26,670 nucleotides of DNA. Source: a virus. Made by a program: the position numbers and the translations under genes. Shown piece by piece: positions 1 through 15,233 of this stretch (its first letter is position 1; each line of letters opens with the position of its first letter). The notes under the pieces were generated by a model that saw only the letters and a list, made by a program, of their open reading frames with translations, made no database searches and had not been told where the DNA came from. The stretch is taken from positions 1-26,670 of the IMG/VR virus record IMGVR_UViG_3300034374_000493; one strand, given 5' to 3'.

Positions 1-3000
1 CTTCTTTTACATCAGTAGCTGTCTTCAATAAGGCAGGATCTTTTACTGCATCAACACCTTCAAATTCAAGCCTCTTTACAGCTTGTTGTTTCATTACTTT
101 TTCAGCCTTGTCGTAACCATTTTTATCAAATGATTTTGTATTTGCTTTTTCGTAATCTTCATATAAATCAAACAAACCTAACCTATCTTCTATTGTGTTT
201 CTATTTCCTCCATCATAGATAAAGAATACCACATCAGGTCTTCCGTTATTAAATTTTTTGTATGTTTCAAAATCCCAATCTCTTACTGCATTTCCATTTT
301 CAACCATTGGCTTGAACTCTTCGTTAAAAGAAGTTCTTGATACAGCTTTAAATCCAAAATTAGAGTAGTAGTTAGGAAGAACAGTATCAAAGGCTTCTGC
401 TGTTGTAGCTCCTTCTTTAATACCTACAACCATTAATTGTGCTAAGTTCTGAGGTCTGCCTGCACTTGGATTAGAGAACGCACCTCCTAAAAATCCCTCT
501 GAAGTAATCGTTATTCCTGTTGATCCATCTTCAGTTACGAACATCCTCATCTTGTTAAATTCTTCTGCAGGATGAACAGTAACCGATGCAGCAAATCTGT
601 TATCTTTTAATGACTCTACCATCATTTGTCGATAAACATTTCCGTCTGTTACTTCATATATTTTTTGAACTTCTTTGAATTTTGGGAATGCTTTTTTAAT
701 TCCTTCAGATATTTTTTTATCTAAAGTATATTCCGCAATTACATTTATGTCAAATAATCCAAGTCTTTTAACTCCTCGTAAGTCTTTTCTATTGACTCCC
801 CTCGTTCCGCTGCTTTTCTTAGAATACTTCTCCAATAGTTCGGATAACACATTAGCTCTTCTATTTGGTCTTGAGTCAATCGTTTCTTGTTCGCTGATTC
901 TTCTTGCTGTTTCATATCTTTTAAAATTAAACTTGTTAGGGAATATAGCTATTTTAGGTTCTGCAAATTTAAACAACTTATTTGCTTTCTCTACTAATTC
1001 ATTAGCTTCTTTTATTTTGCCTTGTTTTCTAAGCTCCTTTGCTTGTCTTCTTAAATCATTAGATTTTTTATTTGCTCCGCTAAAATTAACCCAAGAGTTT
1101 TGCCCTCGTGTTTGAAAGATAACAGCAGGAGCAGCAACATCGCTATATAAATCTAGATGTTGCAATGTAGCGTTCTCTTCCCCTATTGGACCAAACTGAT
1201 TTCCTAATATTCCATGACCGAAATAATCGTGAACAATTCTAAACACTTCTGAATTTGTCAGTTCGTATCCGTCCTCTAATTTTAAACCGCTTGACTGTAA
1301 GCCAACATTATCTGAAACATCAACATCCCCTTGTCCAAAAGCCACTTCATTAGGAAGAAATTTAAGAGTGTTATTATCTCTTATATCTTTAAGCATTTCT
1401 TTTGAATTAGCATAAGGTTCTCCAACTCCTTCGTGCTTTATTACTTTCAACCCTTTGCCTACTATAAACTCATATTGTTTTTTTGTTTCAGAAACTAATG
1501 CGTCATAAGCTATTTTTACTTCTTCTTTTGTTGGTTCATTTTTAATTGACGCATAGGCATCAGCCATCATTTTAGATACCCTCTCATAAAGTTTAGGCAT
1601 AGGAGGATTTACTCTTCCGGGTTGATAAGTTCTGTCCTTTTTCTTTTGCTCTTCAGCAAATTTATTCCTATATTCTATTGCAGCCTGCTGAACAGATTCA
1701 ACACCTTCATTAAATGCTTTCATTCCTGAAGTAGTGACTTCCTGAACCGGACCTGCTTCAGTTAAATCACTACGATACATAGGCTTACTATCTACATCAG
1801 TACCTTCCTTTACATCCAACAACTTAACATCCTCCTCAGTTATCTCCTCACCTGTTCTTGTTTTCCGGGCTAGTGTGTTGATCAGGTCAACAACATCTTG
1901 GTCGCTACCCCAATTCTTAGGTAGTGGTATATTCAACTTCTTAGCTATGTTTAAGAAGAACCTCTTAATCACAGACTTCATGTCACTGTCAAGCTGTGCG
2001 TATCCCCCCTCCACAGACGACAGTAAGCCAATCAACTCAGCAATCTGCTCCTCTGTTTGCAACTGACCCTGATCACCCTGATACTTTGCTGCGTGTTCCT
2101 CTACTGCTATCCTTAGCTTGTGGTTCTTAGGAAGCCTTCTCTGAACAGCACTAACCATATCGTCAGATATTTTCTTCGCAAGTGCATCATTGTTTTTAAC
2201 CTTGTTTAATAAGACAGCATGGAATACCTCGTGTGCAACAGTAGACCTCTTTGCATTTGAAAGGTTAATGTGTATGGTGTTGGTCTCAGGGTTATACTCA
2301 CCACTACTATCACCACCTGCATACTTTGAATACTCATTTTGAGACTCATGCAATACTATCTTAACCTCAGGAGCAATTTTGCTTAACGTCTTTGATGCCA
2401 ATCTAGCAGCAGTCATGGTAAATGATTTTGCTTTCTGAGGTATCAATCCTAATATAGGAGAAGAATCTTTTCTGTTTATAAATAGATTGTCAGATACATT
2501 ATCAAATCCAATACTACGAACCATTGTAACACCATCCTCCTGCATCTTAAAACCATTACGCTCATATAGAGCCTGTAATCTTTTTGCATCTACAGTGTTA
2601 TCCTTTGGTACTAACTTCAGTTTAACATCAACACCATCCTTGTCAGCCTTCTCTGTAATCTGTTTGACTGCAGCCTCAGCCTTTCCTTGACCTTTCTTAC
2701 CCTCCTCAGTCTCTATACTTTCTATTGTAACACCATCCTTATCCTCGGTTATTATAACCTTAGTGCCATCCATATTAACTTGAACACCACCCTCCATCAC
2801 ATCACCAAGGTCAGTTGTCTCTCCTAATCCTTCAGCAAAAGCCTGTTTCTTTTTCTGTGACTTTTGTCCTAATAGTTGCAGTTCTTTGTCTAGTATTGAT
2901 ACCGCTTTTTTATCAATGTCTTCATTTGTAGGCGACTCAACACCTTCCTTCTCTAATTTATCAAGAGCCTTTGTCCTAAGATCCATCTTGTCTTCAGCAC

Positions 3001-4801
3001 TCAAAGACTCATATGAAGTTTTAGTGGTTTCATCAACAGTATCTTCTAGTTGGTTTTCTTGAAGGTTTTTTATTTCGGCTCTAATACTAGCTGATTTATC
3101 CTTTGCAACCTCAGTATCATTGCCCTTTAATTTGTCAAGCTCTAATTGTAGTTCAGCTATTTTGTCTAACGTTGGCTTGTTTATATTTGGGTTTGCTGAT
3201 ACTATATCTGCCTCTGTTTTAAGTTTCTTTATCCTCTCCTGCAACTTAAACTCCATTCCACTATAGTCATTTGAAATCTCAATACCTGCCTGTGCAATTT
3301 CATCAAGCGTCATTGTATTAATTAGATCATCAATAACTTCTCTATCAACAAATGCTCCATTAACTTTATATGTTGGCTTACTTAATACTACCTCTGCAAA
3401 ACTCTTAACAGAACCCGGCATCTCAGCAATACCCTCCAATGCAATTTCAGATATGTCCATATCCTGACCTATCAATGCCCTTGCTGCAGCCTCACCCGCA
3501 GAACCTCCTACCCCTTCAACTAATGAAGAACCTGCAACAGCTTTTAAAACTTGTTTTTTTGTTGCCTCCTTTGCTGCCTGTTTACCACCCTTAGTTAATA
3601 TGCTTGTGGTTAACTTGCCACCCATCTTTCCTGTAAGTGCATCGATTACACCAATAGTAAGTCCTCTTGCTATAGCCTTGTTTCTAATCCTCTTATAAGC
3701 ATCCTCATCATTTAAAATCTCAGCAACTAATTCTTTTGTTAGTTCTCTATCTCCTGCTTCTTCTAATAACAACTCTGAAAATGTTGAACCGAATTCCATT
3801 GCTGAACCTGCTGCGGCAAAAGCAAATGGTAATGCAGTTAATGCACCCCCACCTGCACCTATTGCTGCTCCTACAGGACCTCCCGCTGCACCTGCTGTTC
3901 CACCTATACCTGCACCACCTAAAACAGTACCTTCAAATGCATACCTTGAATCTTTGTTTGCTAGCATAGCCGTGTATGAGTTCAACAATATTTCAGGTAT
4001 TACAGTAAGCCCTGTATTAGCAAGACCTAAAACAACACCTAAAATTCCTTCTCCATTTTCTTCGTAAATTTTTTGGTACTCCATGAACTCATCAGATGAT
4101 CCATACTTTTTAGAATCACGAAGTGCTTCTAAGTATGACTCTATATCTTCATCAGAAGCTTTTGACCCTGCAAGAAGTAGGTCAGATGCATTCTCGGCTA
4201 ATATCCCTTGGTATACACCGCCTGCTATTGCACGAGCTTGGTCGTCTATAAAATCACCTATACCAATAGGAGATACTTTATCTATACCTCTAAGTATATC
4301 ACCAAAAGTTCCTGTGAAGAAATCCTTCTCAGTTATTTCGCCTGTGGTAGCAAATGGGTCTTTAACTTCCGTATCAGCTTTACTTCCACCTTCTCCAAAG
4401 ATTGCTTGTTCTGATACAAAGCCACTACTACTTTTCTTTTTCTGTTCTTCGTTTATTATAGCTGACTCCCTTTCAGCCATAGCATTCCAATCTACCTTCT
4501 TATTTATGTCATCCTCTAATACTGTACCTTCTACAACATCAGTCTCTGACGAAGCCAAAGAACCATCTTCCGAAGGTGATACCATACCTTTTTTTTTTAC
4601 TTCAACTTCAGGAACATTTACACCAATTAAATTAGCAAAATCAGATTCACTACCATTGTATCCTGTATTTGTAAATAGTTTATAACCATCGTTAAATGCA
4701 TTAGGATTGGTATTCATAAGAGTTTTAAAGTCATTTGGTGATCCTTTATATCCTGTTCTTACAAACTCATTGTATAAATCATTAAATGCTTGTTGGTTCA
4801 T
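1..4801 (-). CDS. Giant polyvalent protein, partial (no stop in window)
   Basis: The frame from the ATG at 4801 has no stop down to base 1, giving at least 1600 residues; the C-terminus lies outside. Domains in order are two 30-residue repeats (5-62), a Gly/Ala-rich hydrophobic segment (about 289-338), helices, and a GNAT-like domain with GKKGQGKA (701-708) and LYERNGF (745-751). Next is a zinc-peptidase-like region with HEVFH (857-861) and AVEEHAAKYQ and EEQIAELIG downstream, then a domain with HDYFGH (1191-1196), GEENA and TRGQNSW (1231-1237). A second acetyltransferase-like region follows (LPNYYSNFGF near 1477, then NNGRPDVVFFIYDG). This architecture matches phage polyvalent proteins, multidomain proteins injected with DNA to act on host defences or replication. 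Its place after the ejection genes supports delivery. The boundaries are mine, from motifs. Confidence 0.8.
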   Translation of the reverse strand, partial: MNQQAFNDLYNEFVRTGYKGSPNDFKTLMNTNPNAFNDGYKLFTNTGYNGSESDFANLIGVNVPEVEVKKKGMVSPSEDGSLASSETDVVEGTVLEDDINKKVDWNAMAERESAIINEEQKKKSSSGFVSEQAIFGEGGSKADTEVKDPFATTGEITEKDFFTGTFGDILRGIDKVSPIGIGDFIDDQARAIAGGVYQGILAENASDLLLAGSKASDEDIESYLEALRDSKKYGSSDEFMEYQKIYEENGEGILGVVLGLANTGLTVIPEILLNSYTAMLANKDSRYAFEGTVLGGAGIGGTAGAAGGPVGAAIGAGGGALTALPFAFAAAGSAMEFGSTFSELLLEEAGDRELTKELVAEILNDEDAYKRIRNKAIARGLTIGVIDALTGKMGGKLTTSILTKGGKQAAKEATKKQVLKAVAGSSLVEGVGGSAGEAAARALIGQDMDISEIALEGIAEMPGSVKSFAEVVLSKPTYKVNGAFVDREVIDDLINTMTLDEIAQAGIEISNDYSGMEFKLQERIKKLKTEADIVSANPNINKPTLDKIAELQLELDKLKGNDTEVAKDKSASIRAEIKNLQENQLEDTVDETTKTSYESLSAEDKMDLRTKALDKLEKEGVESPTNEDIDKKAVSILDKELQLLGQKSQKKKQAFAEGLGETTDLGDVMEGGVQVNMDGTKVIITEDKDGVTIESIETEEGKKGQGKAEAAVKQITEKADKDGVDVKLKLVPKDNTVDAKRLQALYERNGFKMQEDGVTMVRSIGFDNVSDNLFINRKDSSPILGLIPQKAKSFTMTAARLASKTLSKIAPEVKIVLHESQNEYSKYAGGDSSGEYNPETNTIHINLSNAKRSTVAHEVFHAVLLNKVKNNDALAKKISDDMVSAVQRRLPKNHKLRIAVEEHAAKYQGDQGQLQTEEQIAELIGLLSSVEGGYAQLDSDMKSVIKRFFLNIAKKLNIPLPKNWGSDQDVVDLINTLARKTRTGEEITEEDVKLLDVKEGTDVDSKPMYRSDLTEAGPVQEVTTSGMKAFNEGVESVQQAAIEYRNKFAEEQKKKDRTYQPGRVNPPMPKLYERVSKMMADAYASIKNEPTKEEVKIAYDALVSETKKQYEFIVGKGLKVIKHEGVGEPYANSKEMLKDIRDNNTLKFLPNEVAFGQGDVDVSDNVGLQSSGLKLEDGYELTNSEVFRIVHDYFGHGILGNQFGPIGEENATLQHLDLYSDVAAPAVIFQTRGQNSWVNFSGANKKSNDLRRQAKELRKQGKIKEANELVEKANKLFKFAEPKIAIFPNKFNFKRYETARRISEQETIDSRPNRRANVLSELLEKYSKKSSGTRGVNRKDLRGVKRLGLFDINVIAEYTLDKKISEGIKKAFPKFKEVQKIYEVTDGNVYRQMMVESLKDNRFAASVTVHPAEEFNKMRMFVTEDGSTGITITSEGFLGGAFSNPSAGRPQNLAQLMVVGIKEGATTAEAFDTVLPNYYSNFGFKAVSRTSFNEEFKPMVENGNAVRDWDFETYKKFNNGRPDVVFFIYDGGNRNTIEDRLGLFDLYEDYEKANTKSFDKNGYDKAEKVMKQQAVKRLEFEGVDAVKDPALLKTATDVKE
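4616..4789 (-). repeat. Two 30-residue repeats at the N-terminus of the giant protein
   Basis: Residues 5-34 and 35-62 repeat the pattern AFNDxYxxFxxTGYxGSxxDF. The spacing between equivalent residues is 30. The repeat is polar with conserved Phe, Tyr, Gly and Asp, compatible with a small packed helical module. Copies are too diverged in DNA to be a recent duplication. Confidence 0.8.
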
Positions 4802-4812
4802 ATTGTATTTTT

Positions 4813-6849
4813 TTATTTAGTATTATACTGACTGCCATTAATCGTACCCGCTCCACCTGTTGCCGTTGGATTAGGATTCCTTGGGGTGCGTGGTGGTGGT
4901 GGTACGTTTTCCGTTCCACTAGTACTCAAATTATTATTTATAAAATCATCCATTGCAGATGCTTTTCCTGCTGCCTGTAATGCATTAGTTACCCAATCAA
5001 TAAATCTTTTTAATTCAACCTTAGCATTTCTTTCAAAAGTAAAGTCAGCGTCTAATTTGAATGTCTCATTAAAACCATCGACTGAAACAATCACTTCATC
5101 TTCAACTACTCCTGAATTATCTAAAAACCTTATACCCAAATCTTCTCCTTCAGGGAAGATTTTTTTAAGCTCGTCTATAACATCCGGACCTGTTTTCTTT
5201 AAAAATGCATCACTAACATTGTCGAAAGAAGTTTGTAAAGCATCTTTAAAATCACTTTCAAAACCGGTAGACCCTGCCCTGTATGCTTTTGCTTCACCCC
5301 AATTTGACTGTCCTTCAGCATCTTTACCAAGTAGAGATGTATCAGCAAATCCACCTGCTGCTAATTGCTTCTCAGGATCTTCAAGCCCTGTAAGTTCAGT
5401 ACCCAACTTAGCCCATTCTTCTTTTGAAATATCATCAGTAAATTCTATTCTAGTATTTTTAGCCGTGTCTAAGTATTCAATATCCAAACCTAATCCATCT
5501 GCAGTAGGATTTATTGCAACTAATCCATCATCAAGCTTTGCAGCCCTTGATAGAAATGCCGTCAATATATTCTTCTTTTCTTCAGGTGAAGCACCCCACA
5601 ATTCATTCCATAATTTTTGTGCTTCTATAGCATCATTATCTGCTCTTTTTGCTGCTTCTTCTGCTGCTGACGGTTTAGGTGGAGCAGGTGGTTTACCTAT
5701 AATATCCTGCACACGAACTTCTGTATTCTCTTCTAAGAATGACGCAACCTGAGTTGTCCACTGCTTCTTAGCTTCCTTCTTCTGTGCGTCAGTCAGCTCA
5801 TAAATGATACGCCCATTCTCTTGTCTCTTTAAAATCACATTCTCCAATCTGTTGCCATTGGCATCAACAGTATCTGCCTCATTGAACGTAGTAATATAAT
5901 CACCACCCTCAGCAATCTTTGCAAAGTCAATAAGGATAGACATACCCTGCCTGTCATTAGACACAATAGACTCACCCATTTGGTTGATAGCTCTGTGTAT
6001 GTTTACTATTGCATCAGTAGACATTTTTGGGTCTAATCCAAGCTCTTCAATTAACTTCTTAGCCTCTTCTTCAGTTGGAGTAAAACCACCCCCCTTCTCA
6101 ATGAAGTATGATGTAATCTTCTCAATCGTCCCCTTGGTATAAGTGCCACCCATACTCTTAATAGTCTCTGCAACAGCAGGAGCTAACTTCTTTGAGTACT
6201 CCTCAGCCGATGCTATCACGTCAAACCTCGCAACCTTGTCCCTTATTATATTGCTGAGTGACTGTACTGAACGTAAAGTGTTTGGGTTGTTGTCAGGCAC
6301 TAGTGGACCACCCGGATTGTTAGGGTCTTCAACCATATTGGCTACGTTAACCTTCCCCGAATAAGGGTCGAACACTATCCTGTTCTTGTTAAAGTTTGAT
6401 GCCTCCTGAACTAATGCAAAGTTCTCTAGATTATCTAAAGACAGCTCTAAATTATCAACGCCCTGCATCACGGCATCTCTCTCATTGTTAAACAACTCAA
6501 TGGTCTTGAACACCTCGTTAGTGCCGTCAACCATATTCTGTCTCATTATTGTGTAATCGCTTGGCTTTAGTTGCCCACTCTTCAGTAGCATGTCCTGCAT
6601 GAGTATCATCTCCTGTGCGTCTGCACTAAACTGTAGGACACCCTTATTGAACTCAACATCTTCACCCAATAGGTTGCTGTCTGTAACCCTCTGCTCATAC
6701 TCACGAGTGGCTTTGTCTATGGCATCCTTCTTCTCTTGTCTAATACGGGACTCTTCGTCTAGAACGTTTCTAACATTCTGACCAACCTCAGCCCAATTAA
6801 TCTGCATGTCTTGGACATCTCTTTTTACATATCCGAATGATGTAGCCAT
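4813..6849 (-). CDS. Internal virion (ejection) protein, large helical
   Basis: A 678-residue, mostly helical and charged protein starting MATSFGYVKRDVQDMQINWA. Long helices (DEESRIRQEKKDAIDKATRE, SNIIRDKVARFDVIASAEEY) dominate the first 400 residues. A linker at about 384-405 (GKPPAPPKPSAAEEAAKRAD) separates an N-terminal and a C-terminal part. The C-terminus has a Pro-rich, Thr-rich tail (VPPPPRTPRNPNPTATGGAG). Size, helix content and place between the gp14-like gene and the giant frame suggest a gp15-like ejection protein. Lys codons are mostly AAG before the linker and mostly AAA after it, a sign that the halves have different histories. I see no enzyme motif. Confidence 0.6.
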   Translation of the reverse strand: MATSFGYVKRDVQDMQINWAEVGQNVRNVLDEESRIRQEKKDAIDKATREYEQRVTDSNLLGEDVEFNKGVLQFSADAQEMILMQDMLLKSGQLKPSDYTIMRQNMVDGTNEVFKTIELFNNERDAVMQGVDNLELSLDNLENFALVQEASNFNKNRIVFDPYSGKVNVANMVEDPNNPGGPLVPDNNPNTLRSVQSLSNIIRDKVARFDVIASAEEYSKKLAPAVAETIKSMGGTYTKGTIEKITSYFIEKGGGFTPTEEEAKKLIEELGLDPKMSTDAIVNIHRAINQMGESIVSNDRQGMSILIDFAKIAEGGDYITTFNEADTVDANGNRLENVILKRQENGRIIYELTDAQKKEAKKQWTTQVASFLEENTEVRVQDIIGKPPAPPKPSAAEEAAKRADNDAIEAQKLWNELWGASPEEKKNILTAFLSRAAKLDDGLVAINPTADGLGLDIEYLDTAKNTRIEFTDDISKEEWAKLGTELTGLEDPEKQLAAGGFADTSLLGKDAEGQSNWGEAKAYRAGSTGFESDFKDALQTSFDNVSDAFLKKTGPDVIDELKKIFPEGEDLGIRFLDNSGVVEDEVIVSVDGFNETFKLDADFTFERNAKVELKRFIDWVTNALQAAGKASAMDDFINNNLSTSGTENVPPPPRTPRNPNPTATGGAGTINGSQYNTK

Positions 6850-6870: not shown

Positions 6871-7722
6871 TTAAAATCCCATAATACTGTTATATCTAAC
6901 AGGGTCTGAGATTCTCATTTCCTCTAATTCTTCGTAAGTAAAATCACCTGCAGTTCCTTTCAATCTGTTATTCTGAGCTGCAGGAGCTGCTGCAGGAGTT
7001 GCTGCAGGTGCTACGCCAAATGGATTGGTAGCCTGCTGATAGAACTTCTGATAATCTGTGTTAAACTTGAACTGCGGATTAGTTTTCTTAAACTGTCTGA
7101 ATGTTTGATCACCACCGGGAGTATATAGACCCGCCTTTTCAGCAGCGTACTTCTGTGCACCCCTGTCCTGTGCGTATAGTGGTATGAACTCCATAGCCTG
7201 CTGACCTAAACTAATAGCACCCTCAATGCCTGCCTGTTTCGCAGCAGTAGCCGCAGCCTCTGCATCGGCAGCTCTCTGCTGTGCACCCATAATCTCCTCT
7301 AAGTCTAACTGAACATTTAGGTCTCTAAGTCTTGACTCCTCCTCCAACTTCATAGCCTCAATGTCAAACAAGTCCTGAGCCATTGCAGTCCTAGTCTGAG
7401 CCTGACCCTGTTGCTGTGCAGCCAACACACGACCTGCAGTAGCAGCACTACCTCTCTCACTCTCTATACCTGCCTCTAGTGCCTGAGCACCCTGAGATAA
7501 TAAAGCCTCTCTCTCAAGTTCATAAGCCTCCTTAGGTATTGACAATGCCTCAGCGTAGTTTACCTCTAGCCTAGCACGAGCTTCTTTCATAGCCTTGTTT
7601 GCGTCCCTATTTGCCCGAGCAGCCATCCTCTTCTGCTTTGCTGACTGAGCGAATGACATTCCTGTTGTTGCTGCCGTTGTTGCTAATCCAATCCCTGCCG
7701 CTATTGCTGTAAATGCTGCCAT
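6871..7722 (-). CDS. Internal virion (ejection) protein, gp14-like
   Basis: A 283-residue protein. Residues 1-30 are Ala/Gly/Thr-rich and hydrophobic (FTAIAAGIGLATTAATTGMS), followed by long Ala/Glu/Gln/Arg helices (to about 180), and a Pro/Ala-rich segment near 240 (GVAPAATPAAAPAAQNNR). A short N-terminal membrane-active stretch followed by helices is the pattern of T7 gp14-type proteins, which leave the capsid and form a channel in the outer membrane. Position just before two larger ejection-type proteins supports this. The name rests on composition and gene order, because T7 gp14 itself is poorly conserved in sequence. Confidence 0.65.
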   Translation of the reverse strand: MAAFTAIAAGIGLATTAATTGMSFAQSAKQKRMAARANRDANKAMKEARARLEVNYAEALSIPKEAYELEREALLSQGAQALEAGIESERGSAATAGRVLAAQQQGQAQTRTAMAQDLFDIEAMKLEEESRLRDLNVQLDLEEIMGAQQRAADAEAAATAAKQAGIEGAISLGQQAMEFIPLYAQDRGAQKYAAEKAGLYTPGGDQTFRQFKKTNPQFKFNTDYQKFYQQATNPFGVAPAATPAAAPAAQNNRLKGTAGDFTYEELEEMRISDPVRYNSIMGF

Positions 7723-7739
7723 ATTATTTTAATGTTTTT
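7718..7739 (-). repeat. 22-base repeat at a gene start, copy 1
   Basis: Identical over 22 bases to 6845-6866. It covers the end of the GNAT gene, the one-base gap and the ATG of the ejection protein gene. On the sense strand it reads AAAAACATTAAAATAAT and then ATGGC. The AT-rich A-leading part would serve as a translation initiation region. Confidence 0.75.
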
Positions 7740-8137
7740 ATCATCTCGCTTGTGTATGAATCTCCCTTAATGTACCCCAAGTCCTCATACGTCTTAATTA
7801 AGCCGTCATGCTTAATTAATGCATATGTGTATCTCGATCCGCTGTCCTTACACACGCCTGTTAATGTTTCAATAAGAAGCTTAATTGCTTCACTACGTTG
7901 TGGCTTCTTTCTGTAAGTCTTGCTTGAGATTATCCAATCAACCCAAGCTACTGCCGAGTTTGTTACATAGATATATCCCGCACATATAGGCTCTTCTCCT
8001 TCTAACACCATTATACCACCAACCCCATCGTCAGGAAGAAAGTCTCTTGGTGGTGCTTGCCACCCCCAATCGTCCCACCATCCTTTGAGTATTTCGTCAT
8101 AGTCTGATGGATTAAGCCTTCTTACATTAAATGCCAT
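7724..8137 (-). CDS. GNAT-family N-acetyltransferase
   Basis: A 137-residue protein beginning MAFNVRRLNPSDYDEILKGW, the usual GNAT first strand and helix. Next come GGIMVLEGEEPICAGYIYVT (central strands), AWVDWIISSKTYRKKPQRSE (motif A region with KxxRSEAI) and a helix LLIETLTGVCKDSG. It ends GLIKTYEDLGYIKGDSYTSE, matching the GNAT L..YE..GF motif B. GNAT enzymes transfer acetyl from acetyl-CoA to amines; the substrate here is unknown. Phage late regions of marine Bacteroidetes often carry such a gene, from memory. An upstream in-frame TTG at 8143 is rejected because it would fall inside the promoter-like element. The stop lies one base before the next ATG. Confidence 0.8.
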   Translation of the reverse strand: MAFNVRRLNPSDYDEILKGWWDDWGWQAPPRDFLPDDGVGGIMVLEGEEPICAGYIYVTNSAVAWVDWIISSKTYRKKPQRSEAIKLLIETLTGVCKDSGSRYTYALIKHDGLIKTYEDLGYIKGDSYTSEMIKTLK

Positions 8138-8140
8138 ACG

Positions 8141-8148
8141 CAAAGATA
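8141..8148 (-). promoter_or_regulatory. -7 promoter element almost touching a start codon
   Basis: The minus strand reads TTATCTTTGCGTATGG, so a full TAnnTTTG match ends only three bases before the ATG at 8137. If used as a promoter it would start the message at or very near the start codon and give a leaderless transcript. The motif matches the one after the second terminator. Confidence 0.38.
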
Positions 8149-8981: not shown

Positions 8982-9890
8982 TTAACAAGTTGCTATTTGA
9001 ATTACTACACCATTCTGAACCTCAATAACGTCACCCGTAGATAGCTTGTAGAAACCATCGTCAGCTATGCCCTGCCCATAATCATCGTAGAACACCCAAT
9101 CATATAAACCAATAGTTCCATAGCTTCCGTTCACAGGTACGTTATATATATTTATTGAAGGGTCTACCGAACAAGCATCAAGCTTGTCTGCGTAGACTGA
9201 AGTGCTTGATATTGCAGTAAGTAGCCTTGGACAGGCAACCTCAATATTAAATGTGTTCGCTCCACTACAAGGGCTAGCTATACTTATATCTAAGTTACTA
9301 GGTCCTGCAGTAACCTTAGGTACAACTATAACGCAATCTCCCGGAGCACTAGCAGATAAGCTTACATCACCCGCAGCCACAGTAACAGACTCAGTGTTGC
9401 CTGTTGCTATAAAGTCAGAGTCAACAAATGAATAGTCGTACTCATCAAGTACATATATTGAGCCTGAAATACCACAGTCATTAGCCGTATCGCCTACAAA
9501 AGTAAAGTTTGTAGATACTGTAGATGCGTGGTATCCATCAACAGGAGAACTCAATTCGTTGTATGTGTTCCCATTATAGGAGACTTTTATTCCGTCAGGT
9601 ACTCCTGCAGGAGTAAATGTAATCACAACAGCACCAATGTCCGTAGGAGTTGCTCCAACGTTTGCAGTTACATTATACAGTCCCTCATTGCCTGAAAATG
9701 CTATAGTATTTCCGCAAGGTATGTTGCAAGATGGACATGTCTGAGCAGGAAGCAGTAAGCATCCTGACAGCTCTCTTACAATAGTCCCATCAGAATAAAA
9801 CCCATCAGCTGCACATGTAGTTAACCCTGCGTCTGTATATACAGCAGTAGAGTCAGCTAATGTATTCCCGTCTAAATAATATAATGCCAT
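8982..9890 (-). CDS. Cys-rich probable tail fibre or adhesion protein
   Basis: A 302-residue protein, low in Lys and Arg and rich in Ser, Thr, Gly, Val and Cys, predicted to be beta-structured. The ends share a short motif: AADGFY at residues 27-32 after VYTDAGLTTC, and ADDGFY at 276-281 after WVFYDDYGQG. This suggests two copies of a small module at the N- and C-termini. Central segments (TFTPAGVPDGIKVSYNGNTY, VTVAAGDVSLSASAPGDCV) look like Ig-like strands. A CPSCNIPCG segment (53-61) may form disulfides or bind metal, and the chain ends in Cys. Composition and position between tail genes indicate an exposed virion protein; receptor binding is inference only. It starts at ATG, eight bases after the previous gene. 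Confidence 0.6.
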   Translation of the reverse strand: MALYYLDGNTLADSTAVYTDAGLTTCAADGFYSDGTIVRELSGCLLLPAQTCPSCNIPCGNTIAFSGNEGLYNVTANVGATPTDIGAVVITFTPAGVPDGIKVSYNGNTYNELSSPVDGYHASTVSTNFTFVGDTANDCGISGSIYVLDEYDYSFVDSDFIATGNTESVTVAAGDVSLSASAPGDCVIVVPKVTAGPSNLDISIASPCSGANTFNIEVACPRLLTAISSTSVYADKLDACSVDPSINIYNVPVNGSYGTIGLYDWVFYDDYGQGIADDGFYKLSTGDVIEVQNGVVIQIATC

Positions 9891-9900
9891 ATCTTAAATT

Positions 9901-10134
9901 TTATTCTTCAATAATTGTCCACTCAGGACCGCTTACAATAACCAACATCTCTTCCTTTGTGTAAGGCGTTAGACCTTGAGGGGCTATGCTCTCCTTAAAC
10001 ATCATTATACCCTTGGTGTCATCTAAAGACATCCGTATATATATGTTTTGACTACCAAGGCTTTCAATCATAAGATGCTTATATCCATCAATGTCGTCCT
10101 TTAGTACAATATAATATCTCAAATCCTCTATCAT
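9901..10134 (-). CDS. Small protein of unknown function
   Basis: A 77-residue protein starting MIEDLRYYIVLKDDIDGYKH and overlapping the end of the tail-tube gene by ATGA, so it is probably translated by coupling. It is mostly beta-strand with an amphipathic character and ends in VIVSGPEWTIIEE. It has no membrane segment, cysteine or catalytic motif that I can see. Its position between the nozzle and the probable fibre gene suggests a tail-assembly or minor tail role, but I do not recognise the family. Confidence 0.7.
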   Translation of the reverse strand: MIEDLRYYIVLKDDIDGYKHLMIESLGSQNIYIRMSLDDTKGIMMFKESIAPQGLTPYTKEEMLVIVSGPEWTIIEE

Positions 10135-13100
10135 GTCGGGTAGTTTACTTCATCTAAATTAGCTGCACTCATATTGAATGGCGTTCCATCATTAGTTCCA
10201 ATTATATCATTGACAATTGTTGTAGGATCATCACGCTTGTCCATACACCAATGGCTTACAATGTCTGAAGCAAAGCTTGCCGTTGTGATGTCAATCGGTA
10301 GACCACCGTTGTATAACTCTGTCACCTCCGCAGCACTCAACTCTTTTGCAATTACTGAGAAGTGATTTGCGTTTCCGTCAATGTAATCAGCTCCCATAAA
10401 TTTTAAAGTTCCGGTTCCGTTTGTCATTCCGGTATAAGTTCCGGCACTTGCATCTCCGGTAACAACTTCCGAATCATTAATATAAATTTTCATTCCGGTG
10501 TAGGTTTTTGAGCCGTCGTAAGTGCATACAATATTTAGCCAAGTTGACAAATCTCCGGCAAGGTCAATATAACGAGCGGCAAGTCTATTTGAAGAATTTG
10601 TAAGTAATTCGAAGAATATTCTTCCGTTTGAGGTCATTCGAAGACGGTATTCATTACTTTTGTTGAAAATTATTCCGTTGGTGCTTGAAGGAAAAGCGTC
10701 TAAATAAACCCAAGCAGAGAAACTAAAAGGTTGGTCCGTTACGCCATCACCAAAACTTAAGTCGTCAGCGTCCGCAACTTCAACAAATTGGTTTATTCCG
10801 TCAAATATAAAACTTGCCTGTAGTGAACCATCACTACATACACAGCAAGCATCAAACTCATCAACACCATAACATAACTCAGCCTCAGTACTATTGGTAT
10901 AGTCGTATATCAAGTACAGATAATCACCCGAAGGAGGCATAGCAAAGCTAGCACTGTACTGCGTTGTTCCAATAATGTTCGGTCCGCTTATAGGCGTAGC
11001 CTCAGTAGACAAACCTAATAGCGTGTTTATATCAGCCTGAGTATTATTGTATAATACATTACTTCTATGGTATCTGAAGTTGTCTGTCAATATATCAAAC
11101 CTAAATGTGTCAAACATACGCTGATTACATATCATTGTAACATTGGCTGCATCACTAGGTATATAACCACCACCTTGAGCACCTGTTATAATATTGTAGT
11201 ATGAAACAAGAGGGTATGCTCCTGATCCAAAGCTAACTAAATTACTGTGCAGTGGCGATGTAAACGTTCCATCATTCCATCTATACTCGTTATGTATCGT
11301 ATCACCCGAATCAGCATTGCTTGTTAAAGTAACAAGAACGATGTTCATAATTGTCTTTTCAGGACACTTAACAGTCAGGTTTATAGTAAAGCTTCCCTTT
11401 GCAGTTAACGAAACAACACCCGTCTCGTTTGATACTGAACTCTTATTAAACGTTAATGTGCCTGACGTAGATACATCACCTGTGGTGTAATCAGAGCCAT
11501 TATAGTTTGCATTTACCGTAAAAGCACCATCACCACCAACAACCTCATAATCAATATCAACGTCACCAACATATTCACCAAAGTCATAACACGCACTATA
11601 CGGCAATGTCGTAGAGATAGATATTGTCCTTGTGCTACCACACTCAATACAGTCAGTATCTACAGGCAATGCTATTGTGTTAGATGACAATACATACTCA
11701 TTCATATACGGATCGAATCCACCAAGCTTCTGCGTTTGGAATGAAACGTTGAATAGGTCTCTAAACCAACTACGCATCCCCTGCATTGATATGACAGTCA
11801 ATTGGTCAGCACCCGTAAGACCACCCTTCAATTGAATCACAGCACCACGCTTTGCATCCGTGAAATACTTATCAGCACCAAACTGAGCAAAACTCTCGGG
11901 GTTGTGTGATATACCATACTCCTCAACACGAGCAATCTGCTGACCAACAATTTCAGGAACTGATGTTATAGCACCACCACCTGCTGCGTCAGACAGTACA
12001 TTCTTGTTCACCTGAACGTAAGATATTTTATCCTCCTGTAGTGTAAGTATGTCTGTCTCTCTAGGGAATAGTTTCATGATAGGACCATACGACATCTCAA
12101 GAGGCTTGAAGTTTAACAGCCCTAGGTTGAACTCATTAAGTCTATTTATGTTTGACTCAGGGTTATACACGCCACTGTATGTCAAGTCAGCGAACCTCCT
12201 CTCTTCTCCATATACCTCAGAGTCTGTAGTCGTAGCACGGTTGCCTAAGACAAGCTCCTTGCCTGCTATTGAGTCCTCAATCTTGTAACTCTCTACACCA
12301 TTACCAAAAGAAAAACAGTTAAAGAAGTCTGTATTAACAATACCCGGAGTGTTTGTCCCAAAGTCTTGGTCTTGTGTATTACCCAAGTGCTCACCATCTG
12401 CTGTTATACCGAACGACTCTGATGACTCATACCATAAGTCAGGCTCTGCATCCTGAGGGTCTGACTCAAATACAATTAGGTTGTCAGAACGAAGTACTTC
12501 AATCCTAACCTTTAATCTACTAGTAAGTTTCTTAGCCTGTCCTCCTCCTACAAAACTTCTAAATGAAAAGTATGTCCTGCCACTATCTGTCCTAATTAAA
12601 CTTAATACATCGTCAGGATAAGCTGAAAGTCCTATTGGAAATGGATACCCTGTCAAGTCATAGTTTGGACCTGTAGAAGACGTACCATCACTATCTGACT
12701 GTGCAGATAATGCCGTAGCTATATTGTTACTGTCAAACCAATCTTCAAAACTAGTATAATCTTGAGGTGATGTAAATGTAGCGTCTACTTTCCAAAAACG
12801 TGGACCTACAGGGCTAAAAATTCCACCACCTATTCTCTTGCATTGGACTTTTATCCTAATCTTACTTCCTGCAGGTATGTCATACGGTATATATGTACTT
12901 GGATTAGATGGATCTTGAATGTCTATAGGATAGTCAACCTGTACGTACTGACCTAAAGAATTAGTTTCTTTTCTTATTTGACCATATGTTATATATGAAT
13001 TTGGAGCAAGTGCAGTGCTGAAGTTATTTGCACGAATCTTCATGTATACACCCGCAGGCACATAGTCAATTGGATTGCCTTCGCTATCAATAGGCTCAGG

Positions 13101-15233
13101 GTTTAAGAAGTCTCTTGGTTTAGCCTCCTTCTCTAGCACCGTAACCCATGTACACTCGTCCTTAGGACCTTGTGTATCCCTCTTTACAATAAGCTCATCA
13201 CCCTCCTCAATCTTCTGAGAGTTCTGCCCCTCTAATAAGAAGTAGTCAGCCCCTGACGTTGGGTCTCTGAAGAAGAAGTTTGTGTATATTATGTCATAGT
13301 CCTTCTTGTCAGGCTTGATACAGAACTTGTATCTTGTCGCCCAATATGGAGCTTTCTGTGTTATTGGTATAGTTACATCAATCGTGTTCTTAAACTCAGA
13401 CGCACTACAAGGAACGTGTACATTATTCTGTGGACTAACCAATGCAGTTGTGCTTCTGCCATACTCATCCATGTATATGATACCAACCTCATACCCCCTG
13501 TTGCTATGCAAACTAGATGGTGCACCTACTTTTTGGTACTCTGCAGATGCATCAAGTATCCTGTAGTACTCATAACTTTCGTGAGTAATTGCATTTTCGT
13601 CATCAACGAATAACATTGCAGGAAGTTGAAATCCAATTGTAGTAATGGTTGGATTTGCAAGTACTCTTATTGGTGTGTCTACCTGAAGAACACCACTCTT
13701 ATACTTATACAAAGTAGGAGTTCCCGATAGTTGGTTAGGTATAGTACAGTTGAATATGTCTGTGAATGTAGCACCATTACAAGCATCATCTACAGGCTCA
13801 ATATTTCCTACAGTACCAACCTTACTTAAAAAGTCAGGGTCACTTGCTAGTGCATATACACTACTAAAGTCTTGCTGAAGCCTATAAGTGAATGATATGA
13901 TTTGTTCTGTAGTTGTCTCAGTTGGGTATGGAGTATCACCCGACCATTGTGCATGTTCAAACCTTATGGTTATAGCAATCAGTGCATCTGCCACTAGATT
14001 CACTCCTGCGAAGTCAACGTATATTACTGAGTCAGTAACAGGAGTGGGTATATTATTGTCAATGAAATAAGTTTGACCGCCAAGCACATATGTCAGCTGT
14101 TCTGAACCTATATCCTCACTAGACAGTGTGGTTATATACTCAAGCTTTACAAACTCGTCATTCAAGTCTACTAACTCATAGTCCTCTAAGTAGTTCCCAT
14201 AGAACAATCGATTGCCCATAAGCGTCTGAGCCTGTGCAAGCCTAGGAACGTTGTCATACAGCCTGAGTATCTCAGAATCAGGAAGTATTGTAAATATCTT
14301 ACTGTTTGTAAACACATAAGTCTCATCCGAATTATCAGTAAGACCTAGCTTAGACTTGTCAATCTCCTCAATAATCTTTATCACAGACGAGTTCATATCC
14401 TTAAACAATAACTCAACAGACTTAACCAAAGGTCCTCCTGTGTTGTAAATAATCCCACACTTATTGGTTGTGTTCAACATACCATCATTCAGTGCTGTAG
14501 CAATGTTATAGTTAAATGTCCCCGGCAAAAATGTCGGCACTGTAAACTGAGACGTAGCCGAGTACTCGCCATCTGCATACTTATATCTGTAAGCAAAACA
14601 TATAAACCTGTCCTCTAAAAAGTTTTCCTCAGAACTTGCAGTCAATGGAATTATTGTAGGCGAGTTTATAGGTGGCTTCTTTATAACAAGTATAGCCTCG
14701 TTTGTGAAACCATCTATCCCCGCAGATGGGGGGTCATATGTAGACTTTACGTTTATCTTCCTTGGCTGATTGTAGTTGTCTGTGAATAACAACAAGTCCT
14801 CAATCTTATTTACTCCCGTAATTAAATACTTATCGTTGAAGTTCAACGTAGTATTTATACCTCCCCCATCATTGACAGACACAACGTGGTATACTATCAC
14901 GCCCGTCTGTACATTTAATGAGACAATCAAGTCAAGCTTGTTAGTAGGTGACGCTGTAAAACTAGGGTCATGAACGAACCAATATATTGTCTCATTCGAT
15001 CCGTCATCAAAAGCACCAATACAACGAGCATCATCACTAAGCTCATTGCCGTCATAAGCTAATGTTGACAGCCTACTGTTACCCTTTGAGTTCTCGATAA
15101 CCCCAACCTCAGAACCTTCGGTAGACCCCATCCTAATATTAAGTGCGTCAATGTACTCACCGTTTGGTACGATACGTTCATCGAGCGTCTTATTCATACG
15201 ACCCAAAGTAAAATTTCTTGTCAAGTTTGCCAT
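10131..15233 (-). CDS. Tail-tube (nozzle/muzzle)-like protein with C-terminal LamG domain
   Basis: A 1700-residue protein beginning MANLTRNFTLGRMNKTLDER, followed by NGEYIDALNIRMGSTEGSEV and GVIENSKGN. This opening is typical of gp12/gp10-type tail nozzle proteins of short-tailed phages and of the muzzle proteins of crAss-like phages. These form the distal tail tube and carry beta-propeller-like domains; IYWFVHDP, VVYHVVSVNDGG-like and LLLFTDNYNQPRKIN segments fit propeller blades. Cysteines cluster near residues 1455-1466 (FDACCVCSDGS). After this cluster, from about residue 1475 to the end, comes a LamG/concanavalin-type jelly roll (VEVADADDLSFGDG, SFSAWVYLDAFPSSTN, GMKIYIN, ELSAAEVTELYNGG), probably for binding surface glycans. 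The DNA for part of this domain differs in composition from its surroundings. It is far longer than T7 gp12 (794 residues). Confidence 0.8.
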   Translation of the reverse strand: MANLTRNFTLGRMNKTLDERIVPNGEYIDALNIRMGSTEGSEVGVIENSKGNSRLSTLAYDGNELSDDARCIGAFDDGSNETIYWFVHDPSFTASPTNKLDLIVSLNVQTGVIVYHVVSVNDGGGINTTLNFNDKYLITGVNKIEDLLLFTDNYNQPRKINVKSTYDPPSAGIDGFTNEAILVIKKPPINSPTIIPLTASSEENFLEDRFICFAYRYKYADGEYSATSQFTVPTFLPGTFNYNIATALNDGMLNTTNKCGIIYNTGGPLVKSVELLFKDMNSSVIKIIEEIDKSKLGLTDNSDETYVFTNSKIFTILPDSEILRLYDNVPRLAQAQTLMGNRLFYGNYLEDYELVDLNDEFVKLEYITTLSSEDIGSEQLTYVLGGQTYFIDNNIPTPVTDSVIYVDFAGVNLVADALIAITIRFEHAQWSGDTPYPTETTTEQIISFTYRLQQDFSSVYALASDPDFLSKVGTVGNIEPVDDACNGATFTDIFNCTIPNQLSGTPTLYKYKSGVLQVDTPIRVLANPTITTIGFQLPAMLFVDDENAITHESYEYYRILDASAEYQKVGAPSSLHSNRGYEVGIIYMDEYGRSTTALVSPQNNVHVPCSASEFKNTIDVTIPITQKAPYWATRYKFCIKPDKKDYDIIYTNFFFRDPTSGADYFLLEGQNSQKIEEGDELIVKRDTQGPKDECTWVTVLEKEAKPRDFLNPEPIDSEGNPIDYVPAGVYMKIRANNFSTALAPNSYITYGQIRKETNSLGQYVQVDYPIDIQDPSNPSTYIPYDIPAGSKIRIKVQCKRIGGGIFSPVGPRFWKVDATFTSPQDYTSFEDWFDSNNIATALSAQSDSDGTSSTGPNYDLTGYPFPIGLSAYPDDVLSLIRTDSGRTYFSFRSFVGGGQAKKLTSRLKVRIEVLRSDNLIVFESDPQDAEPDLWYESSESFGITADGEHLGNTQDQDFGTNTPGIVNTDFFNCFSFGNGVESYKIEDSIAGKELVLGNRATTTDSEVYGEERRFADLTYSGVYNPESNINRLNEFNLGLLNFKPLEMSYGPIMKLFPRETDILTLQEDKISYVQVNKNVLSDAAGGGAITSVPEIVGQQIARVEEYGISHNPESFAQFGADKYFTDAKRGAVIQLKGGLTGADQLTVISMQGMRSWFRDLFNVSFQTQKLGGFDPYMNEYVLSSNTIALPVDTDCIECGSTRTISISTTLPYSACYDFGEYVGDVDIDYEVVGGDGAFTVNANYNGSDYTTGDVSTSGTLTFNKSSVSNETGVVSLTAKGSFTINLTVKCPEKTIMNIVLVTLTSNADSGDTIHNEYRWNDGTFTSPLHSNLVSFGSGAYPLVSYYNIITGAQGGGYIPSDAANVTMICNQRMFDTFRFDILTDNFRYHRSNVLYNNTQADINTLLGLSTEATPISGPNIIGTTQYSASFAMPPSGDYLYLIYDYTNSTEAELCYGVDEFDACCVCSDGSLQASFIFDGINQFVEVADADDLSFGDGVTDQPFSFSAWVYLDAFPSSTNGIIFNKSNEYRLRMTSNGRIFFELLTNSSNRLAARYIDLAGDLSTWLNIVCTYDGSKTYTGMKIYINDSEVVTGDASAGTYTGMTNGTGTLKFMGADYIDGNANHFSVIAKELSAAEVTELYNGGLPIDITTASFASDIVSHWCMDKRDDPTTIVNDIIGTNDGTPFNMSAANLDEVNYPT
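10370..10815 (-). other. Compositionally distinct segment encoding the LamG core
   Basis: Within the tail-tube gene, this stretch encodes the core of the LamG-type domain with codon choices unlike its neighbours, such as ACC-GGA and TTC-GAA type pairs. Six CCGG tetranucleotides fall between 10411 and 10558, whereas I counted only about 22 in the remaining 26 kb. Boundaries are approximate by eye. The simplest reading is a recently acquired domain. Confidence 0.6.

Follow-up and report, generated by a model that had tools for sequence, protein, structure and literature searches.

The window analysed here, a complete virus record of 26,670 bases, carries at one end the gene of a giant protein that is probably an ejected polyvalent protein: a protein in the slot of T7 gp16 that joins a constant N-terminal part to swappable enzymes delivered with the phage DNA, probably against host defence. 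The gene (2..4801, on the minus strand like the other genes and domains of the window located below) is one uninterrupted frame, as an earlier note made from the letters of this DNA had reported, running from an ATG at 4801 to position 2 without an internal stop. It encodes at least 1600 residues, and the C-terminus is out of view because the gene runs off the end of the record. Giant proteins are found in syntenic position in related phages.

Judged from its sequence relationships, the phage is a flavobacterial podovirus with relatives among Elemovirus, Pachyviridae, and Pervagoviridae. The portal, TerL, and capsid proteins have counterparts of 72-77% identity in MW202828, an uncultured Manatee Spring podovirus; for Maribacter phage Panino the figures are 42-54%, and next in closeness come the elemo phages of Flavobacterium and the phages of Cellulophaga. 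Those relatives that are in culture infect Flavobacteriia. Elsewhere in the window, the C-terminal part (aa 1498-1637) of a 1700-aa tail protein (10131-15233) is a Laminin_G_3 lectin domain (E 1e-13), and positions 9885-10932, covering the end of this gene, share 82% DNA identity with the related locus L089, which suggests that the receptor-binding end has been swapped. Neither Rfam elements nor tRNAs were detected in the 26,670 bases.

The giant gene occupies the last slot of a cassette ordered as T7 genes 13-14-15-16, a match that the earlier note had not listed. The cassette comprises a 139-aa GNAT-like protein in the gp13 position (7724..8143; phrog_17252), a 283-aa ejection-type protein in the gp14 position (6871..7722; phrog_13764, virion structural), a 678-aa ejection-type protein in the gp15 position (4813..6849), and the giant protein of at least 1600 aa, compared with 138, 196, 747, and 1318 aa for T7 gp13 to gp16. 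Gene order and relative sizes are those of a podovirus ejection cassette. Sequence comparison with T7 gp14, gp15, and gp16 detected no homology of the cassette proteins, however, and the 139-aa protein aligned only marginally with gp13 (E 0.004, probability 8.6), so that the resemblance to T7 is one of order and size rather than of sequence. The 139-aa protein is kept at the gp13-like slot across the flavophage relatives. The giant gene stands behind two ejection-type genes, as had been remarked on before; wherever the 678-aa protein has a homologue, in 17 loci with the window included, a giant gene follows 6-36 nt downstream of it.

The N-terminal part of the protein is constant among relatives. 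It begins with a tag (4592..4801) made up of two repeats of about 30 aa (aa 1-60, period 30), whose score was reached by none of 300 shuffles, and a VKKK motif at aa 68. A single-sequence scan with the N-terminal region returned no relatives. A double repeat of this kind stands at the start of 30 of 67 non-redundant giant proteins (p <= 0.01), as against 4 of 134 internal control segments, and a KKK motif occurs within residues 31-120 in 39 of the 67 against 4.9 occurrences expected, the giants being partly related and these counts hence not independent events. The tag is located at residue 1 in 13 of 13 homologues, and its being common to otherwise unrelated giants suggests a targeting function. 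A Ser/Asp/Glu-rich linker (aa 66-200; 4202..4606) leads to a Gly/Ala-rich helical region (aa 210-578; 3068..4174), which matches phrog_32588 (E 6e-42), is conserved in 15 related ORFs and precedes the enzyme domains in 16 of 16 cases. It contains the Gly/Ala stretch seen earlier (aa 297-345, 27 of 49 residues); the structural model of aa 196-780, which includes this region, is of low confidence (pLDDT 67, pTM 0.35). Whether the Gly/Ala region is homologous to the N-terminal part of gp123 of Cellulophaga phage phi18:3 was examined by profile comparison, which did no better than a reversed control, and the link was dropped as evidence.

The first enzyme domain is a minimal GNAT (aa 670-765; 2507..2794) whose nearest relative of solved structure, by sequence profile and by fold, is the anti-CRISPR acetyltransferase AcrVA5 (PDB 6iuf). 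The family profile retrieves AcrVA5 at E 9.3e-7, with the next match at 0.021, and a wider profile at E 7.5e-6 versus 0.013 for the next; the AcrVA5-like alignment as a whole was too diverse for scanning, and closer subsets were used instead. With the GNAT model as query, Foldseek likewise places AcrVA5 first (probability 1.00, TM 0.81 by target length, 2.1 A over 96 columns, 24% identity), though at an E-value of only 1e-3. Neither of the two further GNAT-like proteins that this phage encodes retrieves AcrVA5. At the acetyl-CoA motif, Q/R-x-x-G-x-G/A, the window has K-G-Q-G-K-A with Lys in first place, most relatives having R-G-Q/K-G-x-A. Unlike AcrVA5, the domain is part of a giant protein, as it is in all relatives found but one, and because it is embedded in this way rather than being a small stand-alone protein it is filed only as AcrVA5-like. 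AcrVA5Bsp, from a Bacteroidota phage, shares the minimal GNAT fold and is an inhibitor of Cas12a (PMC10799925). The relationship suggests acetylation of a host defence protein, though the specificity of this domain is not readable from its sequence. In a second lineage on larger viral contigs (L011, L058, and L078), an AcrVA5-like GNAT stands beside the HDxFGH domain described below in proteins of 1382-2584 aa, and the adjoining giant ORFs begin MSCTIK or MTCTIK.

The peptidase-like HEVFH motif that had been pointed out (aa 857-861) belongs to a zincin-like metallopeptidase domain (aa 802-989; 1835..2398), a region that matches the metallo-protease family phrog_87 at E 1e-4. Its catalytic residues are conserved: among 43 homologues, aligned domain by domain, His857 and Glu858 are present in all, the second His in 42, and the downstream ligand Glu918 again in all 43, giving the HExxH plus Glu arrangement of zincins. 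Closer to the C-terminus lies a second GNAT-fold domain (aa 1370-1581; 59..694; phrog_2563) that had gone unnoticed. Its fold resembles the acetyltransferase domain of NAGS with a probability of 0.89 but an E-value of 0.28, and matches viral GNATs at E 5e-4; no obvious acetyl-CoA loop was found in aa 1370-1581, and because this usual loop is not evident, the activity of the domain is uncertain.

Between the metallopeptidase and the second GNAT lies the HDxFGH/GQNSW domain (about aa 1046-1313; 863..1666; phrog_3170), which carries the motifs HDYFGH (aa 1191) and TRGQNSW (aa 1231). Relatives occur in at least 549 viral stretches of IMG/VR, and in 84,980 cellular genomes at only 15 loci, several of which are long phage-like proteins. 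A 50-sequence alignment of the domain has 29 invariant columns, including H1191, D1192, H1196, E1208, and H1215, residues that read like a metal or active site. The region aa 1017-1600 gives a good model (pLDDT 84, pTM 0.82), for which matches were found among viral models of giant phage proteins, several of which bear the names of large polyvalent-protein domains; the domain has no match in Pfam and no fold match in the PDB. The motif presumably resembles that of aromatic amino acid hydroxylases, but a relationship to these enzymes was dropped for want of a PDB fold or profile match. Actinobacteriophage homologues of the domain (L090 8536-11112; L091 8602-9903) are gp205 of Rhodococcus phage E3, labelled a structural protein, and gp99 of Mycobacterium phage Alice, which bears no label and is encoded a few genes away from a putative protein of head decoration; in a BD1-7 clade bacterium the domain occurs in 430-aa proteins on two contigs (L106 7836-9125; L107 7836-9125).

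Behind the constant N-terminal part, the enzyme domains are shuffled. The GNAT, the peptidase, the HDxFGH domain, and the second GNAT occur in many orders among relatives, the peptidase preceding HDxFGH in 25 proteins and following it in 18, whereas the tag and the Gly/Ala region stay first. The stretch aa 1017-1581 is 82% identical in L009, 79% in L013, and 70% in L010 (75-81% at the DNA level), with the same ends and unrelated flanks, and the window has two separate stretches of DNA identity with L089, the GNAT (aa 654-761) at 84% and the linker, here confined to aa 66-106, at 82%, with nothing in between. DNA identity of 75-84% stops near domain edges, and the pattern is that of a delivery part which stays fixed while its cargo is exchanged.

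The same genomic slot is filled in elemo phages, in phages Gundel_1, phi18:3 (gp123), phi38:1 (gp101), and Panino, and in MW202828, with proteins of 1691-3694 aa in the cultured relatives. These share different parts with the window: the elemo protein (3694 aa, labelled structural protein, a label for which no source was found) the peptidase, at 38.7% identity, the Gundel_1 protein both the GNAT (E 7e-31) and the peptidase (E 8e-14), and the MW202828 protein the tag, the Gly/Ala region, and a peptidase. In contrast to the window protein, all of them are without HDxFGH and the second GNAT and have another domain order. The virion mass spectrometry called for in the earlier note can be pointed to for one relative only: gp123 of phi18:3 (1935 aa), whose enzyme domains differ from those of the window, owes its annotation to MS/MS proteomics of virions, and so do gp120 and gp121, which precede it. 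The Gundel_1 slot protein and gp123 have a homologous N-terminal region in common. The paper on infection proteomics of phi38:1 does not mention gp101. Public names of related giants can mislead, examples being 'reticulocyte binding/rhoptry protein', 'lysin', and 'RelA/SpoT' (L003 741-12320; L093 5761-17799; L092 6307-14718).

Comparison with known systems places the protein in an established class. Phage polyvalent proteins (Iyer et al. 2017, PMC5512222) likewise combine several unrelated enzyme domains in one chain, zincin metallopeptidases and RimI-like GNATs among them, in permuted orders and beside the virion genes of portal-terminase phages. The window protein carries a metallopeptidase, two GNAT folds, and HDxFGH, with two or more unrelated activities in one chain, and is encoded next to the late virion genes of such a phage; elsewhere among phages its domains turn up rearranged. 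It differs from these proteins in having HDxFGH, the AcrVA5-like GNAT, the fixed tag, and the gp16-like slot, and in that no Pfam or NCBIfam model, those of curated polyvalent domains (LPD, ART-PolyVal, and others) included, matches above cut-off; this last point is not a defining failure because the family is defined by domain combination and context rather than by such models. T7 gp16 and DEV gp71/N4 vRNAP similarly come from the gene that closes an ejection cassette of four or three genes and is the largest in it (PMC10925440), but the window protein has no sequence homology to gp16, and its visible part is without an RNA polymerase or transglycosylase domain. The internal proteins Ip1-Ip3 of T4 (PMC12373910) work alike in being injected against host defence and in having a packaging signal at the N-terminus, a functional analogy that implies no homology, the T4 proteins being small and single-purpose. 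Polyvalent and ejected proteins are known as a class; new here are the architecture, the AcrVA5-like cargo, and HDxFGH, a domain without a name. The interpretation in the earlier note stands as regards the polyvalent type, the reality of the GNAT and peptidase, and the ejection-gene context, and profile and structure searches rule out that its motifs lie in non-homologous helices; injection, enzymatic activity, and a defence target, on the other hand, we infer.

By analogy with T7, DEV, crassviruses, and T4, the giant protein would be packed in the virion and ejected with the 283- and 678-aa proteins, so that its domains reach the host. The giant virion RNA polymerase of DEV is the equivalent of gp16 (PMC10925440), cargo proteins of crassviruses traverse the tail partly unfolded (PMC10172136), and the T4 internal proteins, which are marked for packaging by an N-terminal signal, block restriction (PMC12373910). 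The tag, the VKKK linker, and the Gly/Ala region would act in packaging, in transit through the tail, and in insertion into the host envelope. The delivered chain would comprise the AcrVA5-like acetyltransferase, the zincin metallopeptidase, the HDxFGH domain, and the second GNAT. Most likely the metallopeptidase cuts the giant chain and frees the other domains, before or after delivery; cutting of their own giant chain was the first role proposed for polyvalent metallopeptidase domains (PMC5512222), and here too the protease may act on its own giant chain and not on proteins of the host. The remaining enzymes, the AcrVA5-like domain among them, would then modify host proteins, probably of defence systems, ahead of phage gene expression. 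A role in counter-defence is favoured by the fact that AcrVA5, the nearest solved relative of the GNAT, is an anti-CRISPR enzyme.

The gp16-like slot and the hydrophobic Gly/Ala region would also suit a structural channel protein like T7 gp16, which is ejected but whose enzymes act only on phage proteins or the envelope, with no effector role in the cytoplasm, and the peptidase may serve self-processing there as well (PMC5512222). Two GNAT folds and the fast swapping of whole domains between phages are unexpected for a pure channel, however, and the nearest solved relative of one of these folds is an anti-CRISPR enzyme; this explanation is considered improbable. A virion protein staying outside the cell, be it part of the tail, an adhesin component, or a cell-wall enzyme, is very improbable: relatives are annotated only as structural protein and a Nostoc phage homologue is labelled lysin, but a search for a wall-hydrolase domain found none, the gene lies downstream of the tail genes and adjoins ejection-type genes, and enzymes of intracellular type, acetyl-CoA-dependent GNATs for instance, would be of little use outside the cell. 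Late-gene position alone does not prove packaging, and the MS evidence concerns a slot protein with different enzyme domains, so a non-virion protein acting late in the phage-producing cell has also to be weighed; the annotation of gp123 from virion MS/MS and the conserved tag on otherwise unrelated giants both speak against it, making it the least probable of the explanations.

Anti-CRISPR proteins are generally understood to be made after infection. A bolder version of the ejection reading, in which flavophages preload an AcrVA5-related acetyltransferase in the virion and so disable a CRISPR or other defence protein at entry, ahead of all phage gene expression, HDxFGH being a further, new class of delivered enzyme, appears unlikely; a literature search of incomplete coverage returned no paper describing either a virion-borne AcrVA5 domain or the HDxFGH domain. 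If true, an AcrVA5 relative carried in the virion would do its work on entry, which can be tested directly in cultured relatives, Gundel_1 having the same domain. The HDxFGH domain, found in hundreds of giant viral proteins and with enzyme-like invariant residues, offers a concrete target, and the constancy of the tag beside swappable domains suggests a general delivery signal for such giants.
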